From: an uncultured Clostridia bacterium
GTDB taxonomy: Bacteria > Bacillota > Clostridia > Christensenellales > CAG-138
Length of the DNA: 44,569 nucleotides
Direction: 5' to 3'
Assembly: GCA_947168565.1 (NCBI GenBank)
Contig: CAMVMM010000019.1
Location: 1-44,569, forward strand
The translations under genes were made by a program, and so were the position numbers. Position 1 is the stretch's first letter; each line of letters begins with the position of its first letter. Below, one piece after another: positions 28,439-44,341 of the stretch. The notes beneath the pieces were generated by a model. That model was not told the origin of the DNA and ran no database searches. It saw only the letters and a program-made list of their open reading frames with translations.

Positions 28439-28512
28439 GCGGGTGTAGCTCAATGGCAGAGCGTCGGCTTCCCAAGCCGATCACGTGGGTTCGATTCCCA
28501 TCACCCGCTCCA
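28439..28512 (+). tRNA. tRNA-Gly (anticodon CCC)
   Basis: The cloverleaf is complete. The acceptor stem GCGGGTG/CACCCGC, the D arm GCTC/GAGC, the anticodon arm TCGGC/GCCGA with loop TTCCCAA (anticodon CCC), and the T arm TGGG/CCCA with loop TTCGATT are followed by T and an encoded CCA. It reads GGG codons. Its 3' end is the parent of the fragments repeated in the downstream array. Confidence 0.96.
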
Positions 28513-28628
28513 TAACAGCGGGCGGTGCAGCTTCTGCACCGCCCACTGTTATGGAAGGATTAAAATATTAGGGAATCGAAGGGCGGATCAGCAAACCATC
28601 CTGTGAATGGTTTGCCCGCCCCGGCTTT
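28502..28628. repeat. 127-bp exact direct repeat, left copy
   Basis: Identical to 44148-44274. It contains the tRNA acceptor 3' strand, hairpin A, a linker and the first 58 bp of the module. Confidence 0.95.
28511..28553. repeat. Long perfect hairpin A after tRNA-Gly (copy 1)
   Basis: CATAACAG (28511-28518) and CTGTTATG (28546-28553) enclose GGGCGGTGCAG/CTGCACCGCCC around a CTT loop: 19 bp of stem with one C/A mismatch. It begins inside the tRNA CCA. No T-run follows, so it is not a classical terminator. An identical copy lies at 44157-44199. Confidence 0.92.
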
Positions 28629-28696
28629 TTCGGCGCAGGGCGAGAAGGCGGCGGTGTGAGCCGACTTCGAGACCCGATGCGCGAAAAAGGATTCCC
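28571..28696. repeat. Structured tRNA-associated module, copy 1 (126 bp)
   Basis: The module begins GGGAATCGAAG, the reverse complement of the tRNA-Gly T-arm, and ends GGATTCCC, the T-arm itself, so the ends form a GGGAATC/GATTCCC stem. Inside, GGGCGG..GCAAACCAT pairs with ATGGTTTGC..CCGCCC, and CTTTTTCG-g-CGCA pairs with TGCGCGAAAAAG leaving one bulged base. Copy 2 (44023-44148) is identical. Translations of this repeat give spurious short proteins. Confidence 0.88.
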
Positions 28697-28697
28697 A

Positions 28698-28722
28698 TCT
28701 GAGGGCTTCACTTAGGGATTTG
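28698..28722 (+). other. Left attachment site (attL) of the integrated element
   Basis: The crossover dinucleotide TC (28698-28699) is followed by 13 nt and then TAGGGATTTG (28713-28722). The chromosomal half is GGATTCCCA, the tRNA-like unit end. Confidence 0.8.
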
Positions 28723-28776
28723 GCAAAACAACCATATTTCAAGGAAGATAGCCTTCAAGCGAGTCTAACAGAAATA

Positions 28777-28826
28777 ACGGTCAGATTGAGTAAAGAAAGC
28801 TCAGTCTGGCCGTTTTTCTTGTTTTA
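28777..28826. terminator. Bidirectional terminator at the left end of the element
   Basis: A 14-bp stem (28777-28790 with 28800-28813, two wobble pairs) has TTTTTCTTGTTTT on the plus side and TTATTTCTG on the minus side. It lies directly after the stop of the DUF2075 gene and also blocks transcripts entering from tRNA-Gly. Confidence 0.85.
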
Positions 28827-30329
28827 TTCTGTCGGTTTAACTATCGAAACCACGTTTCTAAACAGCTCTGGTGCATTTACAACTATTATAGCGAGCTTTT
28901 CTCTGACACGAGTTACTCCTTGGTAGAATAGGTTTGGATACAAATAATCCGGATTGGGATGTGGTATGCCCTGAAGAACACTGTTCTCATCGTAATAGAA
29001 AGAAGAATCCATGAGCATTACGACGTTATCAAATTCCTGCCCAATAACATGGTGCGTGTCGAAATCCTCCGCATATGCTGAATAAGGGCTTTCCTCATAA
29101 TTTGACTTTGAATAATTAATGAAGGTGTACCCTTTGTTTCGGTAGTATTCCAACATGGACTGTGCCTCTTGCGTTGTATTGGCGTAGTTCAGTTCCACGC
29201 TTGAATAATCCATAGGCACCCTTGCTCGGTGGTTCAGATTCTTCATACATACGATGAAAGAATGCAATTCTTTATTTGTGCGAATCTTTTCTGACAGTGT
29301 GTATTCTGCATCCGGAGGAATAGCCTTGATTTTGTTTACGATATCGTTTCGCTTCTCAGCGTTTGACAGAATCTGCTCTGGGTCAGAAGAGAAAATGCAT
29401 ACCTGATCGTGGGTCCTAACAGAATCGCATATCGCTTCAAATTGGCTTGTATAGATACGGTGGGTTTCGTCAACAAGAATATAATTATAATCCGCAAGCG
29501 AAACATCCTCATTACGTAACTGTCTGGCAGAGATAATATAAAGCTGTTCGATTTCTTTCCTGATTTTATACTGCCCATCAGATAGTTTCCCACAATGAAT
29601 AATGAGCGTTTTCCCGTTTCGGGAGAGCGTTTTTGCCAAATCGTACAGAAGAAGAGTTTTTCCGGTTCCCGGTTTGCCGGTCAAATGGAAGAAAGCACCA
29701 AAGAAAGCCGCATCAATCCCATTAAGTATGTTTTTCTTAATTTGCTCCTGTGCCTGTGTTAAGAAGTATTCTCCCTGAATGAATCGTGCAGGTGTGTTCA
29801 AGGGAGATACAAGATAATCTGATGCCCGAAACAAATTATCAATCGTATCAGAATAATCGTCGGATATTCTCTTTACGGAACCGACGATTTCATCGAACTC
29901 AACAGGAATCAGCTCATCATTCAATGAAAGCTTATAGCAGGTCATCGTATCTGTTACAACCGAATACAGCCGCAGTCGCTTTCCCAAATGCCCTAAATAG
30001 TGACGGCTTTTCAACAGCTGTTCAATTATTTGCTCTTCGGGTACACTGACCGATTTCAGCTCAATATTGAGGCATAGTTTATCTGTGAACTTCAGCAAAT
30101 CAAATTCTTTGCCAATCTGCGGAATCTGGAAAGAATAGAAAAAGCCATCCATGTCCGCAATAGTGACATCATTTTTCAGAAGCTCATCAGTTAACAATCT
30201 GAGGGACTCGATTTCATGGTATTGTGTCCGCAGAAGCTCTTTACATTGAGAATGGTGCCGCTCGACAATATTGAACGGATCTTCTTCATGTATCCGAGAG
30301 AGATTATAAATGTTTACTGGTCTTGTCAT
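28824..30329 (-). CDS. DUF2075-type ATPase/helicase with N-terminal nuclease-like region
   Basis: This 501-residue protein has Walker A in GKPGTGKT (about residue 216), Walker B in ILVDETHR (about 286), a motif III-like IFSSDPEQ and a C-terminal YQGVTRVREKLAIIV resembling superfamily 1 motif VI. This is the DUF2075 helicase-like core. Around residues 75-92, EFDLLKF...NIELKS followed by QLLKSRHYL resembles a PD-(D/E)xK nuclease core (inference). It lies 19 nt after hsdR in the same direction and closes the restriction operon, so a role in defence against foreign DNA is likely. Its base composition is more AT-rich than the backbone, fitting transfer. Confidence 0.72.
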   Translation of the reverse strand: MTRPVNIYNLSRIHEEDPFNIVERHHSQCKELLRTQYHEIESLRLLTDELLKNDVTIADMDGFFYSFQIPQIGKEFDLLKFTDKLCLNIELKSVSVPEEQIIEQLLKSRHYLGHLGKRLRLYSVVTDTMTCYKLSLNDELIPVEFDEIVGSVKRISDDYSDTIDNLFRASDYLVSPLNTPARFIQGEYFLTQAQEQIKKNILNGIDAAFFGAFFHLTGKPGTGKTLLLYDLAKTLSRNGKTLIIHCGKLSDGQYKIRKEIEQLYIISARQLRNEDVSLADYNYILVDETHRIYTSQFEAICDSVRTHDQVCIFSSDPEQILSNAEKRNDIVNKIKAIPPDAEYTLSEKIRTNKELHSFIVCMKNLNHRARVPMDYSSVELNYANTTQEAQSMLEYYRNKGYTFINYSKSNYEESPYSAYAEDFDTHHVIGQEFDNVVMLMDSSFYYDENSVLQGIPHPNPDYLYPNLFYQGVTRVREKLAIIVVNAPELFRNVVSIVKPTE

Positions 30330-30348
30330 ATATCACCTGTCAGTCGAA

Positions 30349-43895: not shown

Positions 43896-43916
43896 CCGCA
43901 TTTCACGACTATGCCG
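43888..43916 (+). terminator. Terminator at the recombinase gene end
   Basis: CGGCATAG/CTATGCCG (43888-43895, 43909-43916) is an 8-bp stem that includes the stop codon and is followed by ATTCTTT. Confidence 0.7.
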
Positions 43917-43933
43917 ATTCTTTCAGGGAAAAT

Positions 43934-43958
43934 CAAATCCCTATTGTAGGACCCCTTC
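43934..43958 (-). other. Right attachment site (attR) of the integrated element
   Basis: CAAATCCCTA (43934-43943), 13 nt and the crossover TC (43957-43958) mirror the left end exactly. The chromosomal half is ACCCGCTCCA, the tRNA-Gly acceptor 3' strand. Confidence 0.8.
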
Positions 43959-43966
43959 ACCCGCTC

Positions 43967-44008
43967 CATTTGCTTTTTTGGGGGGGCTTGCCCCTCGAAA
44001 AGCAAATG
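43967..44008. repeat. Long hairpin B of the second tRNA-associated unit
   Basis: CATTTGCTTTT (43967-43977) pairs perfectly with AAAAGCAAATG (43998-44008), with an inner GGGGC/GCCCC stem. It occupies the same place after CCGCTCCA as hairpin A in the other units, with unrelated sequence. Confidence 0.9.
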
Positions 44009-44022
44009 GGATTGAATACTAT

Positions 44023-44148
44023 GGGAATCGAAGGGCGGATCAGCAAACCATCCTGTGAATGGTTTGCCCGCCCCGGCTTTTTCGGCGCAGGGCGAGAAGG
44101 CGGCGGTGTGAGCCGACTTCGAGACCCGATGCGCGAAAAAGGATTCCC
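44023..44148. repeat. Structured tRNA-associated module, copy 2 (126 bp)
   Basis: Identical to 28571-28696. It ends GGATTCCC and runs straight into ACCCGCTCCA; the ATC found at this joint in the tRNA is missing. Confidence 0.92.
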
Positions 44149-44274
44149 ACCCGCTCCATAACAGCGGGCGGTGCAGCTTCTGCACCGCCCACTGTTATGG
44201 AAGGATTAAAATATTAGGGAATCGAAGGGCGGATCAGCAAACCATCCTGTGAATGGTTTGCCCGCCCCGGCTTT
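44148..44274. repeat. 127-bp exact direct repeat, right copy
   Basis: Identical to 28502-28628: acceptor fragment, hairpin A (44157-44199), linker and the first 58 bp of the third module. Confidence 0.95.
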
Positions 44275-44341
44275 CGTCAAAAGGCGCGAAAACGCAGCGC
44301 GAAGCGCAAGTTTGAGACGCATCTTTTGCGAAAGGATTCCC
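44217..44341. repeat. Structured tRNA-associated module, divergent copy 3 (125 bp)
   Basis: The first 58 bp and the last bases (AAAGGATTCCC) match copies 1 and 2, but the middle differs. Even so, CTTTCG-t-CAAAAG pairs with CTTTTGCGAAAG, keeping the same stem position and the same single bulge as CTTTTTCG-g-CGCA in the other copies. Overall length is conserved (125 against 126 bp). Confidence 0.85.

Follow-up and report, generated by a model that had tools for sequence, protein, structure and literature searches.

Folded modules with tRNA-matched ends form arrays behind tRNA genes in a family of Clostridia and may mark cassettes inserted into the T-loop

Organization of an array behind tRNA-Gly(CCC)

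A 44,569 nt stretch of DNA from an uncultured Clostridia bacterium (Christensenellales, CAG-138; GenBank assembly GCA_947168565.1), comprising the entire contig CAMVMM010000019.1 and called the window below, carries a tRNA-Gly(CCC) gene that anchors an array of structured repeat units. The gene spans positions 28439..28512 of the forward strand, as given by ARAGORN and by the Rfam tRNA model (71.2 bits), and all parts of the array have the same orientation. A first-pass annotation of this DNA had described three units behind the complete tRNA gene, two of them parted by an inserted element, and ARAGORN, Rfam and the sequence bear this out. Each unit is composed of a tRNA 3′ end (position 57 to CCA), a hairpin starting within this CCA and, after a short linker, a module of 125–126 bp. 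The tRNA 3′ end of unit 3 is three bases short.

Unit 1 (28493..28689), delimited by sequence and fold, begins inside the tRNA gene, next to a putative exchange point that sequence comparisons place in the T-loop between C56 (28492) and G57 (28493). From tRNA position 57 it runs through the tRNA 3′ end, a terminator-like hairpin A, a linker, a complement of the T-arm, hairpin 1, the trinucleotide CGG and hairpin 2. Hairpin A (28509..28555) starts within the CCA end of the tRNA and has 22 nt arms that are 95% complementary. Module 1 (28571..28696), supported by sequence, fold and a covariance model, consists of GGGAATCGAA, which is the complement of T54–C63, followed by the two hairpins and GATTCCC.

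The main part of unit 2 lies at 43959..44141, with its opening 10 nt at 28690–28699 on the other side of the inserted element, and contains hairpin B (43966..44009) and module 2 (44023..44148), which is identical in sequence to module 1 and shares its fold. Unit 3 (44142..44334) carries a second copy of hairpin A (44155..44201), giving the hairpin order A, B, A and modules with T-arm-related ends that had been noted earlier. In module 3 (44217..44341; sequence, fold and covariance model), hairpin 1 is unchanged from module 1 and hairpin 2 has another sequence, yet a comparison of folds confirms that the stem and its single unpaired base are retained. A remnant of the tRNA 3′ end (GATTCCCATC, 44335..44344) follows this last module. 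An Rfam scan of the window matched no family besides tRNA.

A conserved fold with extensive covariation

The module is predicted to adopt a Y shape, in which an outer stem formed by the T-arm complement and the next T-arm is followed by GAA, hairpin 1, CGG and hairpin 2. Hairpin 2 is stacked onto this stem, with one base extrahelical. When seven modules from the genome that holds the window were analysed with RNAalifold, both-side changes were present in 24 of 40 pairs. Among 119 distinct modules, all 40 stem pairs vary on both sides. Furthermore, 94.4% of 4500 cells are paired versus at most 50.6% when partners are slid, and covariation is 0.616 versus 0.051–0.081 with slid partners; the 119-module alignment was fitted to the covariance model, which favours these pairing and covariation figures. 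The paired changes agree with the earlier proposal that a structure is under selection.

G-U pairs account for 2.0% of the standard stem pairs in modules, compared with 4.7% for the stems of 109 tRNAs that lie at these loci. In minimum-energy folds their share is 2.5% in modules but rises to 12.0% once the modules are shuffled. The low share of G-U pairs leans towards folded single-stranded DNA. The recombination site of integrons is described (PMC8946536) as a fold of a single strand in which conservation is higher for the structure than for the sequence, and the predicted fold and covariation of the module fit this description.

Distribution of the module

A first covariance model, built from the seven modules, revealed 12 strong copies and one weak match (E 0.047) in the genome that holds the window. 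All 12 strong copies sit behind a tRNA or a tRNA 3′ fragment. Modules of this genome also stand behind tRNA-Gln, tRNA-Ser, tRNA-Gly(GCC), tRNA-Leu and tRNA-Arg, where their ends correspond to the T-arm of the respective tRNA (with one mismatch for tRNA-Leu). Across 61 genomes, this model found matches in 23. Besides the genome itself, these were 8 out of 10 from the same genus and 13 out of 26 from the rest of the family; of the 24 genomes searched from other families of the order, one gave a match, which was weak (E 0.007). With a second model, built from 122 modules, the module was detected in 74 of 103 family genomes at E 1e-6.

One exact module pattern was found in nine named records, titled as metagenome-assembled genomes (MAGs) of Christensenella sp. 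UBA1214, Clostridia, Oscillospiraceae and Bacillota, and one of these titles names the rumen. An exact module pattern had no match in viral_contigs, and module 1 had none in phage and plasmid collections; on these grounds we rejected the idea that the module belongs to phages or plasmids.

One array of the same genome, at C5:96533, is preceded by a tRNA-Leu 3′ fragment (L041 175–257; L143 6480–7176). An integrase gene and tRNA-Leu(GAG) lie some 30 kb ahead of this array, and the ∼30 kb between tRNA-Leu(GAG) and the array holds open reading frames (ORFs) that are phage-like by eye.

Module ends match the adjoining tRNA

We examined 123 of the 150 listed modules together with the stretch of sequence fetched around each. 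A tRNA was located upstream in 95 of the 123 cases. The module is not specific to tRNA-Gly, and the tRNAs that precede it represent 20 anticodons, which rules out a simple decayed duplication of one tRNA-Gly end. The covariance-model search that the first-pass annotation had proposed thus uncovered both tRNA association and strong compensatory change, and the opposite outcome, matches lacking either property, did not occur. The first module begins 45–58 bp behind the tRNA in 60 of the 66 arrays with a tRNA.

Specifically, the 10 nt left end of the module is the perfect reverse complement of T54–C63 of the same tRNA in 51 of 63 arrays. With tRNAs shuffled 2000 times, perfect arrays numbered 6.65 on average and never more than 15. 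Improved end-finding yielded 55 perfect arrays of 63 at positions 54–63, a figure for which the shuffling was not repeated. Each position from 54 to 63 matches in 80–91 of 91 modules, and the match then falls from 85 of 91 at position 63 to 44 of 91 at position 64. The tRNA is known for all 91 of these modules; 21 of them depart from it at one end or the other, and two of the 21 carry a compensated double change.

A very similar terminator (ATCAAAGAAACCTCTTTTGTCTAC...) follows the CCA at tRNA-Val, tRNA-Leu and tRNA-Asn of different species (L106 from 3624, L036 from 1217, L213). No module was found in the stretch fetched around the tRNA-Asn that carries this terminator.

Empty and filled sites

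A cluster of seven tRNAs is common to genomes G000 and G003, and its tRNA-Tyr/tRNA-Leu junction is empty in G000 and filled in G003. In G000, tRNA-Tyr continues directly into the spacer ahead of tRNA-Leu. In G003, the body of tRNA-Tyr is identical and is followed by a unit, then by a second tRNA-Tyr 3′ end and a nearly unchanged spacer.

A related arrangement was observed in G112, where a unit separates tRNA-Leu(TAA) from the sequence that directly follows tRNA-Leu(TAA) in G110. The T-arm of the G112 tRNA reads AAATCCC and is matched by the left end of the module, and the displaced downstream end keeps the G110 version GAATCTC (GAATCTCTCC). From the displaced end onward, G112 and G110 agree at 145 of 170 bases. 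We rejected the tRNA-Leu(TAA) of G110 as a second empty site because modules with the same tRNA ends stand ∼1.2 kb downstream; the sequence shared with G112 is therefore probably the start of a longer unit. As far as the sequences indicate, both comparisons would fit an insertion between positions 56 and 57, next to the tRNA, and the first alone is clean.

In four genomes of genus g25 (L237, L239, L235, L146), sequence beginning CCAAAATCCGGGTTTTC follows the ends of tRNA-Leu(TAA) or tRNA-Leu(GAG). This sequence resembles a shared unit start.

Genes within units and cores shared between tRNAs

As in the gene cassettes of integron arrays, some units carry genes, placed between the tRNA 3′ end and the hairpin, and many units carry none. 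At tRNA-Leu of the genome that holds the window, a glyoxalase-like gene is accompanied by two further ORFs. Cargo elsewhere includes an APH-domain protein, the alpha/beta hydrolase of a unit at tRNA-Arg and, at tRNA-Ser, a cytosine methylase whose neighbour is unnamed. These named genes have the orientation of the modules. Other arrays hold inserted elements, such as one in G006 with a resolvase gene on the opposite strand.

The cores between the tRNA-matched ends recur at different tRNAs. Among pairs of cores from different arrays, 49 are at least 85% identical, and in 39 of these the ends differ; 13 of the 39 pairs lie within a single genome. In G034, for example, the cores at tRNA-Gly(CCC) and tRNA-Leu(GAG) are 95.2% identical, and the identity ends at the tRNA-matched ends.

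A proposed mechanism for cassette insertion

The architecture of the units, coupled with the empty site and the tRNA-matched ends, leads us to favour, at a probability of about 0.55, a mechanism in which a folded site recombines site-specifically with the tRNA T-arm and DNA cassettes thereby enter the T-loop. A cassette would begin with the 3′ part of a tRNA, from position 57 to the CCA, and could then hold genes; a long terminator-like hairpin, a linker, the 10 nt complement of T54–C63, hairpin 1, CGG and hairpin 2 would complete it. In a circular form, the complement would pair with the cassette's own start, allowing one strand to fold into the Y-shaped site. A putative recombinase supplied in trans would then exchange strands between the tRNA gene, at C56/57, and this site, at hairpin 2/position 57. 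Because the cassette would bring a matching 3′ end and a terminator, the tRNA would remain intact while its old end shifted downstream. Arrays would grow by repeated insertion plus local duplication. Re-matching of the ends at a new tRNA might possibly proceed by arm correction, gene conversion or reverse transcription. The first-pass annotation had suggested either an array of cassettes with attC-like hairpins or a self-copying repeat derived from a tRNA, and the gene-bearing units and the clean empty site lend support to this suggestion, with movement as the probable cause of the empty and filled forms.

A broader version of this mechanism is more tentative. Here, cassette capture would be genome-wide, with the T-arms of many tRNAs serving as the docking site and every tRNA as a potential platform. 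The core would take its ends from the tRNA that it entered, through a folded single-stranded site on which a housekeeping XerS-type recombinase or a UG26 reverse transcriptase (RT) would act in trans.

Several observations weigh against insertion as the origin of the arrays. Only one clean empty site was found, the tRNA-Tyr/tRNA-Leu junction of G000 and G003. G110 and G112 do not align to the left of tRNA-Leu(TAA), their tRNA bodies differ at two positions of the anticodon stem, and the sequence that they share also stands behind tRNA-Leu(GAG) in G034 and G108. No tRNA was recognized in the fetched stretch for 28 of the 123 modules, many of which lie near contig ends. Several later units lack the CCA and half of the hairpin, and similar tandem copies suggest local duplication as well. 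In 25 of 114 cases, compared with 11.2 expected, a core has the same end as its nearest counterpart in other arrays, so part of the spread would be descent along one tRNA type. Integron-type recombination alone fails to explain how one core comes to have different tRNA-matched ends. Moreover, searches with PF00589 and PF00239 revealed no dedicated recombinase for the arrays (Y1, PF01797, and IS110 transposases were not searched). G001, with its 22–23 modules, has one PF00589 protein (XerS-like) and one PF00239 protein at E 1e-6, and relatives of the XerS-like protein of G000 (54–83% identical) occur in G005, G015, G016 and G020, where no module was detected. Finally, GT mismatches outnumber CA mismatches by 55 to 26 on the tRNA-sense strand, which also fits RNA folding; because of this excess, and because arm correction in young palindromes likewise produces few G-U pairs, both DNA and RNA stay in play as the folded strand.

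Candidate recombinases

The genome that holds the window encodes three PF00589 proteins, one of them XerS-like, and none reaches the curated cut-off of any NCBIfam model. The integron integrase IntI was not found among them: two gave 58.4 and 56.5 bits with TIGR02249 (cut-off 265), and the third was unmatched. This genome and G001, whose one PF00589 match is XerS-like, are incomplete MAGs. A dedicated tyrosine recombinase was not found in the PF00589 searches; G083 carries 20 modules, and PF00589 matches just two of its open frames, 83 and 86 aa long. Serine recombinases are uninformative since they are present in all 27 genomes tested, with or without modules. When positions were compared by eye, no PF00589 gene lay between two modules of one array; on contig C11 of G002, one lies 265 bp past a module on the opposite strand. 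XerS-like recombinases, as well as the RT_UG26 enzymes considered below, are leads only.

Alternative explanations

Of the other explanations, the best survivor, although unlikely, is a palindromic repeat resembling miniature inverted-repeat transposable elements (MITEs) or repetitive extragenic palindromes (REPs). Such a repeat would be inserted behind tRNA terminators by a putative transposase; template switching or gene conversion would then homogenize its arms with the T-arm, and local duplication would extend the arrays. Tandem units ∼140–165 bp apart with similar cores, the block swap of hairpin 2 in module 3 and the cores common to different tRNAs are consistent with this scheme, as is the excess of both-side changes over G-U intermediates expected from arm correction. 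However, insertion behind a terminator would not give the doubled tRNA 3′ end with the original spacer downstream that is seen at the filled site. The sharp drop of the end match past position 63 and the genes between units also speak against a repeat of this type.

We consider it improbable that the module acts as a structured RNA. In this model, read-through from the tRNA promoter would yield a T-arm complement that base-pairs with the pre-tRNA at its T-arm and so controls maturation of the tRNA. The fit of each complement to its own tRNA, the strongly conserved fold and the greater tolerance of GT over CA on the tRNA-sense strand would all be in keeping with such a function. In contrast, sequences compared by eye place a terminator-like hairpin between the tRNA and the first module, and a tRNA end, often with CCA, is repeated after the module, which would be superfluous for regulation. 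The protein genes in some units, the low G-U share and the lack of an Rfam family other than tRNA in the window argue in the same direction.

Lowest in our estimate stands a retroelement in which RT_UG26 copies the tRNA 3′ end and the core to new sites. UG/Abi (DRT) reverse transcriptases of group UG26 are candidate enzymes in several module-rich genomes, and the match to RT_UG26 reaches E values of about 1e-172 in two genomes. Among the 103 family genomes, 18 carry this RT at E 1e-30, and the median number of modules is 8.5 in these genomes and 1 in the others (Mann–Whitney p 7e-6, uncorrected for kinship). The RT gene adjoins a module-bearing tRNA in G006, where it has an RTasCOG2852 neighbour, and in G108, and reverse transcription would account for target-matched ends. 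Nevertheless, modules also occur without the RT: no PF00078 match was obtained at E 1e-5 in G083, G030 (16 modules) or G110 (10 modules). Conversely, G062 and G084 carry the RT, and no module was detected in them at E 1e-6. Modules occur in 16 of the 18 RT_UG26 genomes versus 58 of the 85 others (Fisher test p 0.09), and only 2 of 19 RT loci have a module in the fetched stretch.

The RT_UG26 genes at two loci span L106 1344–3277 and L202 1374–2567. At L220, L224 and L225, broken 5′ copies of tRNA-Arg(CCT) lie downstream of an RT gene and ahead of the intact tRNA gene, and resemble leftovers of elements that make use of the anticodon arm of this gene.

Relationship to known systems

The arrays resemble integrons in that each unit ends in an imperfect palindrome whose outer boxes pair, leaving a spacer unpaired and a base extrahelical, in that the start of a unit complements its end, and in that some units hold genes. 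Unlike integrons, they stand on the T-arms of many tRNA genes per genome, and neither an integron integrase gene (intI) nor an attI site was found with them. Their site is a Y fold with two hairpins, and their units carry a tRNA 3′ end and a terminator. Moreover, the core consensus at the exchange point of integrons is GTTRRRY, whereas the exchange point proposed here lacks this core and would read GTTC/RANNC, with exchange at the slash.

Integrative elements at tRNA 3′ ends, which include prophages, integrative mobilizable elements and tycheposons, enter a tRNA gene, restore its 3′ end and encode their own integrase. A restored 3′ end and a displaced old end are likewise found at the G000/G003 junction and in one array comparison. 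Unlike these elements, however, the minimal units of ∼190 bp have no integrase and are too small to encode one, many of them are stacked at a single tRNA, and each has a folded, tRNA-matched module. REP/RAYT (REP-associated tyrosine transposase) systems and other palindromic repeats are short, structured and non-coding, are present in many copies per genome and are perhaps moved in trans. The modules share these properties but differ in having ends specific to the adjoining tRNA, a fixed place behind tRNAs and genes between some units.

Because an integron integrase, attI and a self-encoded integrase were not found, we file the arrays under neither integrons nor tRNA-integrating elements. In the portion of the literature covered by our searches, we found no description of such a tRNA-anchored cassette system, and the arrays look like a previously undescribed way of collecting DNA behind tRNA genes. 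If this proves true, the capture of gene cassettes through folded sites also takes place in Clostridia independently of integrons, anchored on essential tRNA genes. It would then offer a second case for studying how cassettes gain recombination sites and how repeats stay matched to the tRNAs of their hosts, and it would bear on the role of tRNA genes as insertion hot spots. The covariance model can be used for scanning any genome.

An inserted element and other repeats

The sequence that splits unit 2 (about 28700..43958, without assigned strand) was delimited by Pfam matches and boundary sequence. This 15 kb segment contains type I restriction genes, a helicase-like gene, a D5-type primase, a phage capsid gene and, at 42246..43895 on the forward strand, a large serine recombinase with profile matches to Resolvase, Recombinase, zinc ribbon and DUF4368. 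Its ends read CCCA-TC-TGAGG and CCCT-TC-ACCCG, and by eye TC is the likely 2 bp core. Conceptual removal of the segment restores the tRNA end CCCATCACCCG, and it looks like a separate mobile element that used the tRNA end as its site. The element resembles a phage satellite, apparently inserted in a tRNA-end copy.

Beyond the last tRNA-end remnant, the window (44345–44569) contains a second repeat (TCGTCGTCGCGGACT...), with 55 nt copies at 44351 and 44515. Similar sequence follows the tRNA ends at several other tRNAs and in other species, with varying junction points. Very short palindromes (ATGATG..., TGAAATC...) are clustered behind other tRNAs of the same genome (L036 760–960, L029 1570–1800, L037 830–980).

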